A stretch of 64,000 nt of DNA, taken from contig NZ_AUHG01000012.1 of assembly GCF_000423065.1 (NCBI RefSeq), positions 62,001 through 126,000 on the forward strand, written 5' to 3'. A program made the translations under genes and the position numbers. Below the pieces are notes generated by a model. The model was given only the letters and a program-made list of their open reading frames with translations. It did no database searches and had not been told where the DNA came from. Numbering within the stretch: position 1 is the stretch's first letter; every line of letters begins with the position of its first letter. Source of the DNA: Christiangramia echinicola DSM 19838. Its GTDB lineage: Bacteria; Bacteroidota; Bacteroidia; Flavobacteriales; Flavobacteriaceae. Shown one piece after another: positions 44,381-52,194 of this stretch.

Positions 44381-45085
44381 ATGAAGACAATTTTCAATAA
44401 AATGTTCGCAATACTGGTAGTATCCAGCCTTTTATTTGGTTGTGAAGCGACTAAGAATGCGAATAATAAACAAAAAGGAGCCGTGATTGGCGCAACTGGT
44501 GGAGCCGTGATAGGTGGTGTTATTGGTAATAATACCGGTGACGGAAATACTGCCTTAGGATCTATTATAGGAGGTGTTGTAGGTGGTGCTGCCGGTGCGA
44601 TCATTGGTGATCGTATGGATAAGCAGGCTAAGCAAATCGAAGAAGAGATCCCTGGAGCTGAAGTAGAGCGTGTAGGTGAAGGTATTAATGTAACTTTTGA
44701 TGAATCCAGTGGTGTATATTTTGATACGGAGAAATACAATATCAACTCCAAGTCTCAAGCTACACTTAATAAACTGGCCGATATATTTAAAGAATATCCT
44801 AATTCTAACGTATTGGTAGAAGGTCATACAGATAATACCGGTAGTGATAGTTATAACCTCACTCTTTCAAAAAACAGAGCACAGGCCGTAACCGGTTATC
44901 TTGTAGATGCTGGAATAGATAAAAGCAGGTTTACTACAAAGTGGTATGGTGAAACTCAGGCAAAATATGATAATTCTACTGCAGAAGGTCGTTCAAAGAA
45001 CCGTAGAGTGGAACTTGCTATTGTTGCTAATGAGGAGCTTAAGGAGCAAGCTAAGAAAGAAGCTGAACAGAAAGAAGAGAATTAA
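44381..45085 (+). CDS. OmpA-family lipoprotein with glycine zipper
   Basis: 234 residues. Lipobox SSLLFGCEAT, Cys at about 21. A glycine zipper (VIGATGGAVIGGVIGNN and IIGGVVGGAAGAIIGD, about 35-80) suggests membrane association. The OmpA-like peptidoglycan-binding domain covers about 105-215: VYFDTEKYNIN, LVEGHTDNTGSDSYNLTLSKNRAQAV, and GRSKNRRVELAI. It tethers the outer membrane to the cell wall. A strong terminator follows. Confidence 0.93.
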   Translation: MKTIFNKMFAILVVSSLLFGCEATKNANNKQKGAVIGATGGAVIGGVIGNNTGDGNTALGSIIGGVVGGAAGAIIGDRMDKQAKQIEEEIPGAEVERVGEGINVTFDESSGVYFDTEKYNINSKSQATLNKLADIFKEYPNSNVLVEGHTDNTGSDSYNLTLSKNRAQAVTGYLVDAGIDKSRFTTKWYGETQAKYDNSTAEGRSKNRRVELAIVANEELKEQAKKEAEQKEEN

Positions 45086-45111: not shown

Positions 45112-45141
45112 TAAATCCCGGAACTATTCCGGGATTTTTTT
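45112..45141 (+). terminator. Terminator after the OmpA lipoprotein gene
   Basis: Arms AATCCCGGAA / TTCCGGGATT with a 3-base loop, then TTTTT. It leaves only 23 bases before the GTG of the next gene. Confidence 0.88.
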
Positions 45142-45164: not shown

Positions 45165-46292
45165 GTGAAAAAGACCCAGGTTATAATTATTGGAGGTGGA
45201 CTTGCAGGATTAACTGCGGCGATTGACCTACGCCTAAAAGGAGTTGAAGTAACCTTATTCGAAAAAAATGAATATCCGCATCATAAAGTTTGTGGCGAAT
45301 ATTTATCGAATGAAGTCCAGCCTTATCTAAACTCCCTGGGAATCGAATTAAGTTGTTTAGCTGCTCCCAAAATAAATAAACTGGAATATTCTTCATGCCC
45401 TGGTAATCTTATTAATTGTGATCTGGATATGGGCGGTATCGGAATTAGTAGATTTGGATTAGATCAACATCTATATAAAAAAGCGATCGGCCTAGGTTGT
45501 ACAATTGTTTTTTCCGCCGTTAATGAGGTGATCTTCACTGAAAATAACTTTAGGGTGAACTGTGGAAATAATGAAGAATATCACTCAGATTTTGTATTAG
45601 GAGCTTTTGGTAAACGGTCTAATATAGATAAAAAGCTGGAGCGTGATTTCTTCAAAAACCAGGCGGGATGGCTCGCGGTAAAAGCTCACTACAAAAATTC
45701 AAAATATCCGGAAGAACTGGTTTCCCTGCATAATTTTAAGGGAGGCTACTGTGGTCTTTCCAGGACTGAGATGAATTCTATTAATGTATGTTATCTGGCT
45801 ACTTATTCTAGTTTTAAGAGGTACAAAAATACGGTTGACTATAAGAATGAAGTATTAATGAGAAATCCACGTCTAAAAGAATTCTTTGAAAATTCTGAAA
45901 TGATATTTGATAAAGAATTGACTATAGCCCAGGTGAATTTCGAAAAGAAGACCTTGATAGATGATCATATCATTATGATAGGAGATTCGGCCGGACTCAT
46001 TCATCCTTTATGTGGTAATGGTATGGCGATGGCTATTCACAGTGCGAAAATGGCAGCTAACGAAATCGATCAATATTATAAGAACAAATCTTTTAGTAGA
46101 TTGGATGTAGAAAATAATTACCAGGTTGGCTGGGGTAAAAATTTCAATAAACGAATAAAAGCCGGCAGGATTTTACAAAGAGTTTTGCTAAATGATTCAT
46201 TATCAAACTTATCACAAAGCATTATTCGTCGGTTCCCGGGAGTAATACCCCATATTATTAAAAGTACGCACGGAAAACCTGTTTATGTTTAA
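45165..46292 (+). CDS. FAD-dependent oxidoreductase of the type III PKS cluster
   Basis: 375 residues, GTG start giving MKKTQVIIIGGGLAG. Dinucleotide fold GGGLAG at 10-15, and GDSAGLIHPLCGNGMAMA near 275 as the second FAD motif. It looks like a geranylgeranyl-reductase/PHBH-type flavoprotein of the kind that hydroxylates aromatic rings or reduces lipids. First gene of the eight-gene cluster, 8 bases overlapping the methyltransferase gene. By analogy with SrsC of the Streptomyces srs operon, which hydroxylates an alkylresorcinol ring, a ring oxidation role is inferred. Confidence 0.88.
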   Translation: MKKTQVIIIGGGLAGLTAAIDLRLKGVEVTLFEKNEYPHHKVCGEYLSNEVQPYLNSLGIELSCLAAPKINKLEYSSCPGNLINCDLDMGGIGISRFGLDQHLYKKAIGLGCTIVFSAVNEVIFTENNFRVNCGNNEEYHSDFVLGAFGKRSNIDKKLERDFFKNQAGWLAVKAHYKNSKYPEELVSLHNFKGGYCGLSRTEMNSINVCYLATYSSFKRYKNTVDYKNEVLMRNPRLKEFFENSEMIFDKELTIAQVNFEKKTLIDDHIIMIGDSAGLIHPLCGNGMAMAIHSAKMAANEIDQYYKNKSFSRLDVENNYQVGWGKNFNKRIKAGRILQRVLLNDSLSNLSQSIIRRFPGVIPHIIKSTHGKPVYV

Positions 46293-47013
46293 GATAGATA
46301 CTTCTAAGAGAACCGATGAAAGCGAGATCATGGATGATTTCGACTTACAGGGCGAAGAACTTGGTAGGACGCTTAATGATCTCGATAACATTAATTCCTG
46401 GTTAGGAGGAAATAAGATCACCATTAAAGGAGTGGAAAAACTTCTTCAAAAGGGATCGCCAAAAAATACTATTAGCATCGCCGATATTGGTTGTGGTAAT
46501 GGTACAATTCTCAGGAAACTTGCAGATTGGGGAAGAAAAAATGGATATAATCTGGAACTGGTTGGGATCGATGCAAACACCCATGCCATAGCAATTGCTG
46601 AAGATCTTTCAGCAGAATATTCTGAAATTAGCTTCAGAAGCCTGAACATTTTTAGTGAAGAATTTCGAAAACTGAATTTCGATATAATCCTTTGTACCTT
46701 AACCTTGCACCATTTTAAGGATTCACAGATCATCAATCTATTAAATCAATTATACGTTCAATCAAATACAGGAGTAATAATTAATGATCTTCATCGCAGC
46801 AGTGCAGCCTATATATTATTCAAAGCCTTTTGTGGAGTATTTGTAGATAATGAGATTGCCAGGAAAGATGGCCTTATTTCTATTTTAAGAGGTTTCAAGA
46901 GAGCTGATCTTAACAGATATAAAAAACAAATTCTGGCGAAAAACCACTCTATAAGGTGGAAATGGGCATTTAGATATCAATGGATCATAGAAAAAGAACC
47001 TAATAACTTATGA
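46285..47013 (+). CDS. Class I SAM-dependent methyltransferase of the type III PKS cluster
   Basis: 242 residues. Motif I IADIGCGNGTIL near 66-77, acidic Asp in VGIDANTHAIAIA, and motif IV IILCTLTLHHF near 133. This is the general UbiE/Coq5-like class I layout; the target atom is not apparent. Starts within the end of the FAD gene and ends by overlapping the type III PKS start by 4 bases (ATGA), so translation is coupled. SrsB-like C- or O-methylation of the polyketide ring is inferred. Confidence 0.9.
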   Translation: MFKIDTSKRTDESEIMDDFDLQGEELGRTLNDLDNINSWLGGNKITIKGVEKLLQKGSPKNTISIADIGCGNGTILRKLADWGRKNGYNLELVGIDANTHAIAIAEDLSAEYSEISFRSLNIFSEEFRKLNFDIILCTLTLHHFKDSQIINLLNQLYVQSNTGVIINDLHRSSAAYILFKAFCGVFVDNEIARKDGLISILRGFKRADLNRYKKQILAKNHSIRWKWAFRYQWIIEKEPNNL

Positions 47014-48062
47014 GTGTAAAAATTGTAAAGGTCGAAAAAGAATTACCTCAATATTCCAGAGAAACCAGGGATATTCTTCCTTTTGTAGAGCAATGGTTAG
47101 ATGGGCAGGAAGAAAGATTCCGGCGAAAGATCCTTAAGATCTTTGAGAGCGCAGGAGTTGATAAGAGATATTCTATAATGTCACCAGAGGAAGTATTTAC
47201 CAATACTTCATTTGAGGATAAAAACAATATATATATAAGGGAAGTCAAAAAATTAGGTAATAACGTTCTAAAAAAGGCTTTAAATAATTCTAACTGGAAA
47301 CCAGATTCTCTGGACTATATAATTACGGTGAGTTGCACCGGTATAATGATACCATCCTTAGATGCGTATCTAATCAATGAACTTGATCTTAGACAGGATA
47401 TCACACGCCTTCCTGTAACCGAGATGGGTTGTGCTGCAGGAATATCAGGAATGATCTATGCTTATAATTTTTTAAAAGCCAATCCTGGAAAACGTGCTGC
47501 GGTAATAGCCGTTGAAAGCCCTTCAGCAACTTTTCAACTGGATGATTACAGTATGGCAAACATGGTGAGTGCAGCAATTTTCGGTGATGGCGCAGCTTGC
47601 GTTCTAATGTCTTCAGAAGAGAATATTCAGGGTCCTAAAATAATTGGAGAGGAAATGTACCATTTTTATAACGCTACCCATATGATGGGATTCGATCTAA
47701 AAAATAGTGGTTTACAAATGATCTTGGATCCAGAAGTTCCTTCAACGATTTCAGAACATTTTCCTGAGATCATACATCCATTTTTAAGAAGGCATAATAC
47801 TTCAATAGAAAACGTGGAGCATTTGATATTTCATCCAGGAGGTCGGAAAATTGTACAGACGGTTTCTGATCTTTTTGGTAACTTAGGAAAGAATATTGAC
47901 GATACCCGGGAAGTATTGCGTTTATATGGCAATATGAGTAGTGCAACAGTTCTGTATGTACTCGAGCGATTTCTTGATAAAGATATTCCGAAAGGAGAGC
48001 AGGGGATAATGCTCAGTTTTGGTCCGGGATTTTCAGCACAAAGAATTTTAATAGAATGGTAG
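47010..48062 (+). CDS. Type III polyketide synthase (chalcone/stilbene synthase superfamily)
   Basis: 350 residues, homodimeric family length. Catalytic triad recognised: Cys141 in TEMGCAAG, His275 in FHPGG, and Asn308 in LYGNMSSATV; SFGPGFSAQ near 336-344 is the C-terminal loop. Type III PKSs extend an acyl starter with malonyl-CoA and cyclise it to pyrones, resorcinols or related rings. The neighbours point to a long acyl starter from the cluster's own carrier protein rather than a CoA aromatic starter. It overlaps both flanking genes, so the operon is translated as a unit. Confidence 0.95.
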   Translation: MSVKIVKVEKELPQYSRETRDILPFVEQWLDGQEERFRRKILKIFESAGVDKRYSIMSPEEVFTNTSFEDKNNIYIREVKKLGNNVLKKALNNSNWKPDSLDYIITVSCTGIMIPSLDAYLINELDLRQDITRLPVTEMGCAAGISGMIYAYNFLKANPGKRAAVIAVESPSATFQLDDYSMANMVSAAIFGDGAACVLMSSEENIQGPKIIGEEMYHFYNATHMMGFDLKNSGLQMILDPEVPSTISEHFPEIIHPFLRRHNTSIENVEHLIFHPGGRKIVQTVSDLFGNLGKNIDDTREVLRLYGNMSSATVLYVLERFLDKDIPKGEQGIMLSFGPGFSAQRILIEW

Positions 48063-48850
48063 CAGAATTTAAAGATCAGAATTACTGGGCACTTATTCTT
48101 GGCGGAAGTAGTGGTCTGGGGTATGCCAGTGCAAAGAAACTCGCCAAACATGGTATGAATATCATCATAATTCACCGGGATCGAAGAAGTGAAGTTCCGG
48201 ATATTGAAGAGGCTTTTGATGAAATTCGTGAATCTGGAGTGCAATTTGAAAGTTTTAATGCCGATGCAGTTAGAAAGGAAAGCAGAGAAGAATTAGTAGG
48301 TAAAATAAAGAATCTCCTTGGTGAAAATGGGAAAATAAGAACCCTTTTGCATAGTATAGCGAAAGGAAACCTTAAACCAATGTTAGGCGAAGAAGGCATT
48401 CTAGAAAATATAGATTTCCAGTTAACTATAGACGCCATGGCAATAAGCTTATACGACTGGACTCAGGCGATATTTAGAAATGATCTTTTTACTAAAGATG
48501 CCCGGGTAATTTCATTCACCAGCGACGGAAATAAAAAAGCATGGAAAAATTATGCGGCGGTATCTGCTGCAAAGGTTACCCTGGAAGCACTTACTAGAAG
48601 TATGGCTTTAGAGTTTGCCAGGCATGGGATTAGAGCAAACTGTATACAGGCGGGAATAACGGTTACCAGGTCTTTCCAGATGATCCCCGGAAATGAAACT
48701 CTTAGGGTTCATGCCTTGAAGCACAATCCGTTTAGAAGACTCACCGTACCCGATGATGTAGCTAACGTAGTTTATCTTTTAAGTAAAGATGAAGCTGGCT
48801 GGATCACCGGAACTATTATTCCTGTAAATGGTGGAGAACACTTAATGTAA
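48056..48850 (+). CDS. SDR of the enoyl-ACP reductase type (FabI/FabL-like)
   Basis: 264 residues. GGSSGLG at 16-22 binds the nicotinamide cofactor. LLHSIAKG near 98-104 recalls the FabI substrate loop. The catalytic pair is Tyr166-x6-Lys173, the enoyl-reductase spacing; ordinary ketoreductases have Y-x3-K. The C-terminal GWITGTIIPVNGGEHLM is usual. It most likely reduces an enoyl-ACP intermediate, though keto reduction cannot be excluded because no separate KR is present in the cluster. It overlaps the PKS gene by 7 bases. Confidence 0.88.
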   Translation: MVAEFKDQNYWALILGGSSGLGYASAKKLAKHGMNIIIIHRDRRSEVPDIEEAFDEIRESGVQFESFNADAVRKESREELVGKIKNLLGENGKIRTLLHSIAKGNLKPMLGEEGILENIDFQLTIDAMAISLYDWTQAIFRNDLFTKDARVISFTSDGNKKAWKNYAAVSAAKVTLEALTRSMALEFARHGIRANCIQAGITVTRSFQMIPGNETLRVHALKHNPFRRLTVPDDVANVVYLLSKDEAGWITGTIIPVNGGEHLM

Positions 48851-49297
48851 ATGCAGGAAATACTTGAACAATTACCTTATTCTGATCCTTTTCTTTTTGT
48901 GGATGAGATCCTTAAAATAGATGCTGATTCTATAGAGGGATCATATACTTTTTCTGCAAATTCAGAATTTTATAAAGGTCATTTCAAAAATCACCCAGTA
49001 ACTCCGGGAGTTATTTTAACTGAATGCATGGCTCAAATTGGGGTAGTATGCCTTGGTATTCATCTTCTAAATAAAGAAGACGATGATAAAAGAAAAGCTA
49101 AGATCGCCTTGACTTCAACAGACATGGAGTTTCTAAAACCTGTTTATCCCGGAGAAAAAGTAAAGGTAGTTTCAACTAAACAGTATTTTAGATTCAATAA
49201 ACTAAAATGTCGCGTTGAAATGTTCAATTCAGAAGATTCCCTGGTTTGTAGAGGAACAATCTCAGGAATGATCCTGAAAAATAAATACGAAGAATAA
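48851..49297 (+). CDS. FabZ-like 3-hydroxyacyl-ACP dehydratase
   Basis: 148 residues, hotdog fold. LPYSDPFLFVDEI near 8-20, then catalytic His44 in YKGHFKNHPVTPG and Glu58 in ILTECMAQ, as in FabZ. It removes water from 3-hydroxyacyl-ACP. Directly abuts the SDR gene before it and the ketosynthase gene after it. The His/Glu pair shows it should be active. Confidence 0.9.
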   Translation: MQEILEQLPYSDPFLFVDEILKIDADSIEGSYTFSANSEFYKGHFKNHPVTPGVILTECMAQIGVVCLGIHLLNKEDDDKRKAKIALTSTDMEFLKPVYPGEKVKVVSTKQYFRFNKLKCRVEMFNSEDSLVCRGTISGMILKNKYEE

Positions 49298-50572
49298 ATG
49301 CCAAAACGAGTTGTTATAACTGGAATGGGCGTTGCAGCACCCAATGCCGTAGGTCTTTCAAATTTCAATAATGCATTGAAGCAAATGAAAAGCGGTATTC
49401 GTTTTTTCCCCCAGTTACAAGACTTGAATTTTAGTTGCCAGATAGCAGGCAAACCAGAGATTTCTAAAGAACTATTGAACAAATACTTTACCCCTTTACA
49501 ACTTCGTGGATTAAATAGTAGCGGGATTGTTTATGGGGTGATTTCAGGGGTAGATGCGTGGAATGATGCTGGCCTGGATATATTGGAAACCGAATCTCCA
49601 GACTGGGATTCCGGGATTATATTTGGAACTGGTATCCTTGGTGTGGATAAATTCCGTGAGGCCATACATCTAATAGATGAAGGGAAAACCAGACGACTTG
49701 GAAGTACCAGTGTGATGCAAACCATGGCTAGCGGAATTAGTGCCTATCTCGGAGGTATTCTTGGTTGCGGGAACCAGGTGACAACCAATTCCTCAGCCTG
49801 TACCACAGGAACAGAAGCTCTTTTGATGGGGTTTGAAAGGATCCAGTCTGGAAAAGCAAAACGTATGCTGGTTGGAAGCTGCAGCGATCACGGCCCATAT
49901 ATATGGGGAGGTTTTGACGCAATGAGGATATTACCGAATAAATATAATGATGATCCTGAAAAAGCTTCCAGGCCCATGAGCGAGAGTGCTTCAGGATTTG
50001 TTCCGGGTAGTGGAGCAGGAGCTCTGGTGTTGGAAGATCTTGATTCAGCTTTAGAAAGAGGGGCAAGGATATATTGTGAAGTATTAGGAGGCGAAGTAAA
50101 TAGTGGAGGTCAAAGGGCAGAAGGAAGCATGACCGCTGCAAATAATGAAGCTGTTATCAGGTGTATTCAAAATGCATTGAAAAATTCTGATGTCGATCCT
50201 AACGAGATCGATTCTATTAATGGACATTTAACGGCAACAACAAGAGATTCAGTAGAAATTGACAATTGGACCAGAGCCTTAAATCGCAGGGGTGAAGATT
50301 TCCCCTATATTAATTCTCTTAAAGGTATGACAGGCCATTGTTTGAGTGCTTCAGGTTCCATAGAATGCATTGCCTCGGTACTTGAAATCTATAATGAGTA
50401 TATATTCGGGAATTTAAATGGTGAGGATAAACATCCTGATATTTTAAAATTGATCGATGCTGAAAGTATTCCTGATGCTAAAATTGAAAGAAAAATTAAT
50501 ATTTTGGCCAAGGCCAGTTTTGGTTTCGGAGATGTGAATGCCGTGACCATATTTAAAAGATATATTACTTAA
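49298..50572 (+). CDS. FabF-like beta-ketoacyl-ACP synthase of the type III PKS cluster
   Basis: 424 residues, KAS II fold. Catalytic Cys168 in NSSACTTG, His310 in INGHLTATTRDSVE, Lys342 and His347 in SLKGMTGHCLSASGS. The usual NTHGTGTP form is altered to NGHLTATT but the histidine is kept. It elongates an acyl-ACP by two carbons, presumably on the ACP that follows. No chain-length-factor partner is present. The gene abuts the dehydratase gene and precedes the ACP by 10 bases. Confidence 0.92.
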   Translation: MPKRVVITGMGVAAPNAVGLSNFNNALKQMKSGIRFFPQLQDLNFSCQIAGKPEISKELLNKYFTPLQLRGLNSSGIVYGVISGVDAWNDAGLDILETESPDWDSGIIFGTGILGVDKFREAIHLIDEGKTRRLGSTSVMQTMASGISAYLGGILGCGNQVTTNSSACTTGTEALLMGFERIQSGKAKRMLVGSCSDHGPYIWGGFDAMRILPNKYNDDPEKASRPMSESASGFVPGSGAGALVLEDLDSALERGARIYCEVLGGEVNSGGQRAEGSMTAANNEAVIRCIQNALKNSDVDPNEIDSINGHLTATTRDSVEIDNWTRALNRRGEDFPYINSLKGMTGHCLSASGSIECIASVLEIYNEYIFGNLNGEDKHPDILKLIDAESIPDAKIERKINILAKASFGFGDVNAVTIFKRYIT

Positions 50573-50582
50573 TTATTTTGCT

Positions 50583-50837
50583 ATGAGTGATAAAGAGATC
50601 ATTAATAAAATTAAAAAGATCGTGGAGCCTTATGTACAAAGGCTGGAAGGTTTAAAGAATTTTCAGGAAGAGACTGATTTTCTAAACGATCTCCAGATCA
50701 ATTCAGCAAACCTGGTAGATGTTGTGTTAGATGTGGAAGACGAATTCGATATTGAGATCGATAATGACTCTATGGAAGGTATGCTGACGGTGGGAGACGC
50801 AAAATCCATTATTGAAAGGAAATTGATGACCAGATGA
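50583..50837 (+). CDS. Dedicated acyl carrier protein
   Basis: 84 residues, acidic, four-helix ACP pattern. Phosphopantetheine Ser41 is in LQINSANLVDVV. The usual DSL/DSLD becomes N-S-A, a divergent signature that may limit cross-talk with the housekeeping AcpP. The acidic helix II (DVEDEFDIEI) is retained. It overlaps the PPTase gene by 4 bases (ATGA). Confidence 0.93.
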   Translation: MSDKEIINKIKKIVEPYVQRLEGLKNFQEETDFLNDLQINSANLVDVVLDVEDEFDIEIDNDSMEGMLTVGDAKSIIERKLMTR

Positions 50838-51394
50838 TTGGTAATGATATCATAGATCTGAAAATTGCCAGAGCCGAGGGGAAGTCTGATGATACTAGAT
50901 TTATAGATAAGGTATTCACCGAATTTGAGAGATCTCTAATTCTCAATTCTCAGGATCCTGAACTACATTTATGGATCTTATGGTCCATGAAAGAAGCGGC
51001 TTATAAAGCGCATCAGAGAATATATGATCTTCCACGAAAATTGAATCCCAGATCATATGAATGTCAATATTTTCATCAAGAAAATTCTGGTAAGGTAAGT
51101 ATAGGATCATTTGAATATAGTATTGATGTTCAAACCACTTCTGAATATATTCATAGTATTACTTCCAGTGGGGCGTTAATCCAGATGGCCTTTTTCAATG
51201 GGCAGACTTCAAGATCTGAGCTACTCGCTAGATTTTTATCCATAAATTCAATTGAAATGGATGAGATTAAACTCTATAAAGACTTTAATGGAGTTCCTTC
51301 TATTCCCTTAAAAAACTCACCAAAAAAATTACCAATTTCACTAAGTCATCACGGGAATTTTACAGCTTTTGCCATTCCGTTAATTAACTCCTAA
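50834..51394 (+). CDS. 4'-Phosphopantetheinyl transferase
   Basis: 186 residues. GNDIIDL at 3-9 and the Mg-binding/KEAxxK motif WSMKEAAYKAH at 50-60, as in the Sfp/AcpS superfamily. It moves the phosphopantetheine arm from CoA to an ACP serine. Placed immediately after the unusual ACP, it is very probably its private activating enzyme. The C-terminal part (LPISLSHHGNFTAFAIP) has the Ser-His pattern of the second ligand-binding half. Last gene of the cluster. Confidence 0.93.
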   Translation: MIGNDIIDLKIARAEGKSDDTRFIDKVFTEFERSLILNSQDPELHLWILWSMKEAAYKAHQRIYDLPRKLNPRSYECQYFHQENSGKVSIGSFEYSIDVQTTSEYIHSITSSGALIQMAFFNGQTSRSELLARFLSINSIEMDEIKLYKDFNGVPSIPLKNSPKKLPISLSHHGNFTAFAIPLINS

Positions 51395-51477
51395 AAGCAG
51401 TTAAACATTTAAAAACTAGTTTGACCTCTCGTGCCTTGTTTTGTATCTTCAATCATCAATTAAAAAATCATTTATAT

Positions 51478-52194
51478 ATGAAGACAGTAGATAAGATGGA
51501 GGTGATTCATAGCCAGTCGGCTGAGTTTATTCAACAAGGTGAAACAGGTAAATTTTTAAAATTGATCCCTGATACTTTTGTAATAAAAGGAGAAAAAGAA
51601 AATGGTGTTTTTAATCAGGGATATGCAATTAGACACCTTAACCGAAGAGATATGCTGCTAATAGATGTTGTAGAGAAATCTACAAAAGATGCAGTAAAGA
51701 AATTAGTAGAAGAAGGATATAATATTAAAGGTATTTTGATTACCTGTGATGCAGTTTTAAAATCTGCATATGCAGATCTCAAAACCATTTCTGAAGATGC
51801 CGGAGGTGCTCCGATCTTTGCTCATCCAAGAAACAATTTCAAAGACGATTTTAAAACAAAAGATATCACAGGAAAAGATAAATCCCTGGATAGTTTTGAT
51901 ATTAATATTTTTGACCTTCCAGGTAACGAAGGTGCTTCGGTCGTGGTTTATACTGAAATCAATGACGGAATGCTATTTCCAGGTGAAGATGCCGTAGGTT
52001 CTGACTATGATTCTGAACTAAACACTTTTATTCGTCCTGAAAAGAAAAATGAGAATAACGATTTTGGACTGGCTGAGAGCTGGGCTGCTTTTGATACTCC
52101 ATTTAGTTTCTTATTTCCAAGAAAAGGAAAACCAGGCTTTAACCTTGAAGAAGGAGAGCAGATAGATATTTTAAATAAATTAGGTAAAAGTTAA
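51478..52194 (+). CDS. Metallo-beta-lactamase-fold-like protein with a degenerate metal site
   Basis: About 238 residues (start ATG 51478; an upstream in-frame TTG at 51421 adds a poorly conserved lead). The fold is suggested by the strand-helix run DMLLIDVVEKSTKDAVKKLVEEGYNIKGILIT followed by CDAVLKSA, exactly where active enzymes have THxHxDH. The zinc ligands are absent, and DLPGNEGASVVVY later lacks the usual HTPGHT histidines. It is therefore probably non-enzymatic or uses another mechanism. It lies 83 bases after the PPTase gene; a link to the cluster is possible but unproven. Confidence 0.6.
   Translation: MKTVDKMEVIHSQSAEFIQQGETGKFLKLIPDTFVIKGEKENGVFNQGYAIRHLNRRDMLLIDVVEKSTKDAVKKLVEEGYNIKGILITCDAVLKSAYADLKTISEDAGGAPIFAHPRNNFKDDFKTKDITGKDKSLDSFDINIFDLPGNEGASVVVYTEINDGMLFPGEDAVGSDYDSELNTFIRPEKKNENNDFGLAESWAAFDTPFSFLFPRKGKPGFNLEEGEQIDILNKLGKS

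Follow-up and report, generated by a model that had tools for sequence, protein, structure and literature searches.

A type III polyketide synthase gene cluster of Christiangramia echinicola with type II fatty acid synthase-like genes, a candidate operon for a methylated phenolic lipid

Gene content of the cluster

A 64,000-nucleotide stretch of the Christiangramia echinicola DSM 19838 genome (NZ_AUHG01000012.1, positions 62,001 to 126,000, forward strand; hereafter the window) carries a type III polyketide synthase (PKS) gene within a cluster of eight complete plus-strand open reading frames (ORFs) at 45165-51394. The junctions between consecutive ORFs were -8, -4, -7, 0, 0, +10, and -4 bases, in agreement with the short overlaps and gaps reported in a preliminary description of this DNA, and the Pfam and NCBIfam families of all eight products agreed with the names given there. 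The first gene (45165-46292, GTG start) encodes a FAD-dependent oxidoreductase of the GG-reductase/monooxygenase superfamily (Pfam FAD_binding_3). It is followed by genes for an S-adenosylmethionine (SAM)-dependent methyltransferase (46285-47013; Methyltransf_31, with PRK06202 as the best NCBIfam model, below its cut-off) and the type III PKS (47010-48062; Chal_sti_synt N and C domains). The remaining five genes resemble parts of a type II fatty acid synthase (FAS) and encode a short-chain dehydrogenase/reductase (SDR) of the FabL/FabI type (48056-48850), a FabZ-type 3-hydroxyacyl-acyl carrier protein (ACP) dehydratase (48851-49297; Pfam and NCBIfam), a beta-ketoacyl-ACP synthase (KS) of the FabF/FabB type from a distinct Bacteroidota subfamily (49298-50572; Pfam and NCBIfam), an ACP (50583-50837; NCBIfam ACP matches, Pfam score 20.1 against a cut-off of 20.8), and a 4'-phosphopantetheinyl transferase (PPTase; 50834-51394; Pfam match). 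The GC content of the cluster resembles that of its neighborhood. We infer that the eight genes form one transcript.

Active sites and relatedness of the fatty acid synthase-like proteins

Ortholog alignments were examined after removal of rows outside 75-125% of the length of the window protein, and the catalytic residues checked were invariant among the aligned orthologs. The PKS triad Cys141-His275-Asn308 was present in 81/81 rows, His44 and Glu58 of FabZ in 74/74, Cys168, His310, Lys342, and His347 of the KS in 80/80, and the SAM-motif residues D67 and G69 of the methyltransferase in 75/75. Ser41 of the ACP, which lies within INSANLVD, was conserved in 74/74 rows. No sequence match to the cluster PPTase was found in the PDB.

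A YX6K signature marks enoyl reductases, and YX3K marks keto reductases. The SDR carries Y166-X6-K173, with both residues present in 63/63 rows, and the spacing is the same as that of FabL in the alignment. FlxB, a FabG-like reductase encoded in a flexirubin-type aryl polyene cluster of the same genome, has the YX3K spacing. The YX6K signature ruled out a ketoreductase as the identity of the SDR. FabL was also the best NCBIfam model for the SDR, although the score of 137.9 bits was under the equivalog cut-off of 328; the site and the similarity together point to an enoyl-ACP reductase of the FabL/FabI type.

The KS carries two invariant unusual motifs, GHLT at the place of HGTST in the housekeeping FabF and GFGD at the place of GFGG in FabB-type structures. 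The housekeeping FabF was only 31% identical to it and the KS of the polyene cluster 29%, so that a recent copy of housekeeping fatty acid synthesis or of the polyene cluster was ruled out as the source of the cassette. An ACP gene lies next to the housekeeping FabF gene, and its product was 45% identical to the cluster ACP over 49 residues. The best match of the KS in a plasmid collection was 34.6% identical, and a PHROGs search had no match to the KS and none but general ones to the methyltransferase and the FAD enzyme.

Linkage of the gene set to one type III PKS clade

Genome contigs were scanned for relatives of the PKS. The scan gave 128 stretches, 104 of them encoding relatives, and the best 80 of the 104 were kept. 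Of these loci, 66 were at least 19 kb long; in them, genes no farther than 7.5 kb from the PKS were counted with profiles built from the same 80 loci, a design that could favor weak paralogs. An independent tblastn search showed the same genes. The methyltransferase, KS, FabZ, and ACP were each found in 66/66 long loci and the FAD enzyme in 64/66, whereas the SDR was found in just 51/66 and the PPTase in 41/66; these two are dispensable. In 78/80 loci, all detected cluster genes shared one strand and, missing genes aside, kept the same order, which argues that the eight-gene arrangement is not due to chance. In two Dyadobacter loci, where the search for a FAD gene gave no match, the cassette was divergent from the methyltransferase and PKS genes.

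The closest named relatives of the PKS were in Christiangramia loci, at up to 91% identity. Among 299 sampled genomes of the window's family, Flavobacteriaceae, 103 encoded the PKS at 59% identity or more, and the 104th match had only 34%. Some PKS match was obtained for 164 of the 395 genomes in a sample of the phylum, at 65% identity or more for 33 of them; the rest, among the matches listed, did not exceed 35%. An ortholog of the KS was present in 33/33 of the phylum-sample genomes with this PKS clade and in five further genomes at 45-53% identity.

As a contrast, 20 divergent type III PKS loci were hand-picked, 19 from the phylum sample and one from the sample of the window's family. KS, FabZ, and ACP of the cluster kind were found within 7-7.5 kb of the PKS in 0/20. 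Methyltransferase and FAD matches lay near the PKS in 5/20, with a FAD score of just 32-42 bits in three. Type III PKS genes were also present in 163 plasmid records, of which six, five of them annotated, were examined. In four of the annotated records, the PKS was accompanied by an isoprenylcysteine-type methyltransferase, and the fifth, from Deinococcus, showed the order PKS, methyltransferase, FAD monooxygenase, and glycosyltransferase. No KS or ACP was seen near the PKS in the displayed stretches of the five annotated records, whose tables are incomplete. Comparison across these loci supports a discrete type II set that is linked to this clade of type III PKSs. The clade occurs in 103 of the 299 family genomes, and the genes that accompany it are now specified in enough detail for experimental work.

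Two of the divergent loci (L129 and L133) had a UbiA-family prenyltransferase gene beside the PKS, methyltransferase, and FAD genes, a hint of prenylated phenolic lipids. The agq cluster of Actinoplanes, which combines UbiA with a PKS, a methyltransferase, and a FAD enzyme, may be a further parallel.

Comparison with known pathways and the proposed function

Published operons that combine a methyltransferase, an oxidoreductase, and a type III PKS include those for planctomycete alkylresorcinols and cyanobacterial hierridins (PMC10896814) as well as those for polyketide quinones (PMC9927152, PMC5916927). The window has the same kind of operon in that its methyltransferase and FAD oxidoreductase genes lie directly beside the PKS gene, and the link to methylated and oxidized phenolic lipids drawn in the preliminary description was upheld by this resemblance, a likeness of description to the hidABC operon of cyanobacteria, the planctomycete operon, and the srs and PkQ operons of actinobacteria (PMC10896814, PMC9927152). 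Those operons mostly have three genes, whereas the window has the order FAD enzyme, methyltransferase, and PKS plus the five type II FAS-like genes. In one comparative study, T3PKS was the second most common cluster class among the Flavobacteriaceae it covered, at 9% (PMC7440613), and T3PKS clusters of Aquimarina have been called novel or unlike known ones (PMC9860996, PMC9323603). A term search for T3PKS in PMC9248904 gave no match. In the literature searched, the eight-gene set and the shared cassette described below were nowhere described; most subscription journals and supplements lay outside its scope, which makes this weak evidence of absence.

For a dedicated chain supply, a close parallel is the ars operon of Azotobacter vinelandii, which employs a type I FAS. 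There, as proposed here, a dedicated FAS (ArsA) hands an ACP-bound chain to the type III PKSs ArsB and ArsC, and GCS and SCO7671 also accept an acyl-ACP, namely hexanoyl-ACP (PMC6274091). The wording for ars in PMC5916927 is type I pkss. In the window, too, dedicated FAS genes are contiguous with a type III PKS gene; the cluster differs from ars in that its FAS parts are discrete type II proteins without a ketoreductase, that a methyltransferase and a FAD enzyme are added, and that no second reductase, and hence no complete cycle, is encoded among the eight genes. In the cylindrocyclophane pathway, an ACP-borne chain passes from CylB/CylD/CylH to CylI, which closes a resorcinol, but type I PKSs and a halogenase stand in place of the KS, FabZ, and enoyl reductase (PMC8086630).

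We consider it probable that the cluster is an operon for a methylated, oxidized phenolic lipid in which an acyl chain on the cluster ACP feeds the type III PKS. The PPTase would activate the ACP, and the KS, FabZ, and FabL-type enoyl reductase would build the chain on it. Ketoreduction, malonyl-ACP, and priming would be borrowed from housekeeping fatty acid synthesis, because none of the eight genes encodes a FabG-type ketoreductase, a FabD, or a FabH by Pfam and NCBIfam. Elsewhere, the window's genome encodes an ACP-FabF pair and a FabZ match inside a 466-residue open frame; it has one type III PKS match and two PPTase matches, the cluster PPTase being one. The type III PKS would accept this acyl-ACP as its starter, add malonyl units, and cyclize the product, most likely to an alkylresorcinol. 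The methyltransferase and the FAD enzyme, likely a ring hydroxylase, would then methylate and hydroxylate the ring on the way to a lipid like the hierridins or polyketide quinones, with a methoxy- or methyl-hydroquinone or a quinone as its ring. A semi-private acyl-ACP supply to the PKS, with methylation and oxidation afterward, is the most likely arrangement, since both acyl-ACP-using type III PKSs and operons of this kind are on record. If so, the source of the chain is named, and the cluster is a type II counterpart to the coupling in Azotobacter. A quinone product, if made, would raise the question of an unrecognized redox lipid in marine Bacteroidota.

Several observations weigh against this proposal. 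The eight genes lack the three FAS functions named above, so "self-contained," as the cluster was first called, is an overstatement and the starter can be at most semi-private; the discreteness of the type II set and its link to the PKS clade (66/66 loci, 33/33 genomes) stand. The SDR is missing from 15/66 long loci and the PPTase from 25/66. In C. glutamicum, PKSs of planctomycetes formed resorcinols with acyl groups of the host (PMC10896814), and heterologous expression of darA and darB from C. pinensis yielded a dialkylresorcinol (PMC3992019), which shows that a cassette is not always needed; the effect of a private supply may be to tune the pathway and not to enable it. These same results, together with the loss of SDR and PPTase in some lineages, favor a different account in which the PKS draws on ordinary acyl-CoA or on acyl-ACP from housekeeping synthesis, while the cassette does no more than modify the chain, through extra carbons, unsaturation, or branching, or matters conditionally. 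That account is rather unlikely in view of the constancy of KS, FabZ, and ACP in every long locus and of the KS in every genome of the clade.

The ring type and the role of the FAD enzyme also bear on the proposed phenolic product. The closest solved sequence to the PKS was PKS11, an alpha-pyrone synthase (PMC6274091), which again weighs against a phenolic lipid and would suit a methylated alkylpyrone, with no resorcinol or quinone. In the structural model of the PKS (pLDDT 88), CylI, a resorcinol former, ranked first by Foldseek E-value (26% identity in the structural alignment), a match in favor of a resorcinol; the target TM-score was slightly higher for PKS11 than for CylI. By manual count in the alignment, Phe228 corresponds to Trp230 of PKS11 and was invariant in 34/34 rows, a correspondence that might suit a pyrone. 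An aromatic residue favors aldol closure in ArsB/ArsC (PMC6274091), which would speak against a pyrone if the positions correspond, yet PKS11 carries Trp at this position and makes pyrones; this single residue points clearly to neither ring type. The near-constant presence of the FAD enzyme speaks against the alkylpyrone, as published operons with a methyltransferase and an oxidoreductase concern resorcinols. Overall, we regard the alkylpyrone as possible but unlikely. The model of the FAD enzyme (pLDDT 86) matched halogenases, hydroxylases, and a GG-reductase at similar scores and thus failed to separate a hydroxylase from a reductase or halogenase, and the planctomycete work did not settle what the FAD oxidoreductase of G. 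maris does (PMC10896814); both points count against the predicted hydroxylation. DpgA was ruled out as the identity of the PKS (175.4 bits against an NCBIfam cut-off of 425). As a whole, the interpretation in the preliminary description was partly supported.

Occurrence of the cassette beside other pathways

The search for the cassette away from the PKS started from the five extra genomes with a KS and was then extended to 195 genomes of the family of G675. Chitinophagaceae is the probable identity of this family, as its member G683 has a KS and a FabZ equal to those of a named Chitinophaga tropicalis locus. KS matches were found in 20/195 genomes, and their neighbors were a type III PKS in 5, DarA/B/G/H genes in 7, a contig edge in 3, and other genes in 5.

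Eight loci were Dar-linked: L145, from another family, and L146, L179-L183, and L185. The genes for SDR, FabZ, and KS, in the order of the window's cluster, lay beside those for DarA/B/G/H in 8/8 of these loci and were divergent from them; ACP genes were recognized in 5 of the loci and PPTase genes in 6. The DarB scores were 634.8 bits in L145 and 614.7 bits in L146 (cut-off 550), each with an adjoining DarA-like gene, and DarG and DarH of L145 were above their cut-offs; outside L145, and apart from the DarB of L146, the Dar names were given by BLAST to the L145 proteins. The Dar-linked KS proteins were 50-53% identical to that of the window. Bacteroidota dar and flexirubin clusters share the SDR-FabZ-KS order in these loci and differ from the window's cluster in that the ring is the work of DarA/DarB instead of a type III PKS; the window's genome itself had no DarB match at E 1e-60. 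A chain-supply role for the cassette fits its position beside DarA/DarB.

A gene of 153-169 amino acids stood directly before DarA in each of the eight loci, and the L145 copy had no Pfam family.

A third group (L147, L148, L149, and L192) had KS, FabZ, and ACP genes with a GNAT-like gene, and L148 had an SDR gene too. These sets indicate that the cassette is not tied to ring starters, and they support an alternative in which it acts beside or after the PKS and provides a second acyl group for the ring or for another lipid, a GT2 gene being present in three of the four loci. We judge this alternative improbable. No acyltransferase family was matched among the eight genes of the cluster with Pfam and NCBIfam, and acyl chains serve type III PKSs and DarA/DarB alike as precursors of the ring. 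The KS-FabZ-ACP sets of this group, with their GNAT-like genes and, in three loci, a recognized GT2 glycosyltransferase gene, may belong to an unknown lipid pathway.

The KS tree had 51 rows, including 22 of the 79 available contig-scan rows picked for spread. It resolved a single PKS-linked clade (100/99), a GNAT clade (94/83), and a clade that joined the 8 Dar-linked rows with the 3 from contig edges (100/100). One host family (f4) occurred in both the PKS-linked and the Dar-linked clades. The FabZ tree also separated the PKS-linked and Dar-linked rows (98/97 and 97/94). The SDR tree grouped the Dar-linked rows in one clade (100/100) but left the PKS-linked rows unseparated from a single f24 row (2 changes). 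By these trees, the cassette follows its partner pathway. The SDR-FabZ-KS set beside dialkylresorcinol genes and the sorting of KS by partner pathway are new here.

Taken further, these data would fit a portable Bacteroidota acyl-ACP cassette, composed of a GFGD-type KS and FabZ and usually a YX6K enoyl reductase, ACP, and PPTase, that is plugged into a type III PKS, DarA/DarB, or a GNAT/GT2 system, diverges with its partner, and hands its chain directly from ACP to partner. We hold the chances for and against this view to be evenly balanced. Two findings in the window's family count against the proposed function of the cluster: in the phylum sample, the KS was found only in family genomes with this PKS, while DarB occurred in 52/299 genomes of the family sample, so the cassette is no fixed part of dar clusters. 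If the proposed function is correct, one acyl-supply module is common to two unrelated ring-making chemistries.

Relatives of the KS in L184 and L189, and in three loci (L187, L190, and L191) where two related KS genes are adjacent with FabZ, ACP, and SDR genes, had other neighbors. By pattern match, the second KS of these three loci lacks GHLT and GFGD, resembling a chain-length-factor arrangement.

Co-occurrence with flexirubin-type genes

The flexirubin-type aryl polyene cluster of the same genome lies outside the window (C3:38000-56000, L136), with FlxA at 858 bits and FlxB at 408 bits, both above cut-off. Flexirubin genes have been described, or clusters listed, for other Bacteroidota (PMC9606717, PMC10752948). 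In the family sample, 18/70 FlxA-positive genomes had no DarB above cut-off, although one of the 18 (G037) had a DarB fragment under cut-off at a contig end. The PKS was associated with FlxA (39/70 versus 64/229, Fisher p 4e-5) and with DarB (29/52 versus 74/247, p 6e-4), both uncorrected for kinship.

Conceivably, where a genome has a flexirubin-type polyene cluster but lacks DarB, the ring lipid supplies the phenol that is joined to the aryl polyene in a flexirubin-like ester. The window's genome has FlxA and FlxB about 67 kb from the PKS and lacks a DarB match, as noted above, and the PKS and FlxA genes are about 12 kb apart in two genomes of one other genus (L194 and L195). The PKS was, however, as common in FlxA-positive genomes with DarB (29/52) as in those without it (10/18) and also occurred in 64/229 genomes without FlxA, and the genes between PKS and FlxA in L194 and L195 were mostly housekeeping-like by sequence reading. 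Such a partnership is therefore very improbable, and replacement of a Dar resorcinol by the PKS product was not supported.

In L194 and L195, genes that read like fabH, accB, and accC lie between PKS and FlxA; these names come from the sequence.

Flanking features

A terminator-like hairpin on the plus strand at 45113-45137 (11 pairs, 5 of them G-C, with a T-rich tail; a pattern match only) lies between the cluster and an upstream OmpA-family gene at 44381-45085. In 34/71 related loci, many of them from Flavobacteriaceae, the FAD gene was preceded on the same strand by an OmpA-family gene whose end lay less than 1.5 kb away.

Downstream of the PPTase gene, the next ORF starts at 51421 (TTG) or 51478 (ATG). 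This ORF (51421-52194) had no Pfam or NCBIfam match, and a relative was not found in the Arenibacter, Maribacter, Polaribacter, and other loci. Relatives were located downstream in most Christiangramia loci (83-95% identity) and in Salegentibacter and Gillisia loci (66-76%).

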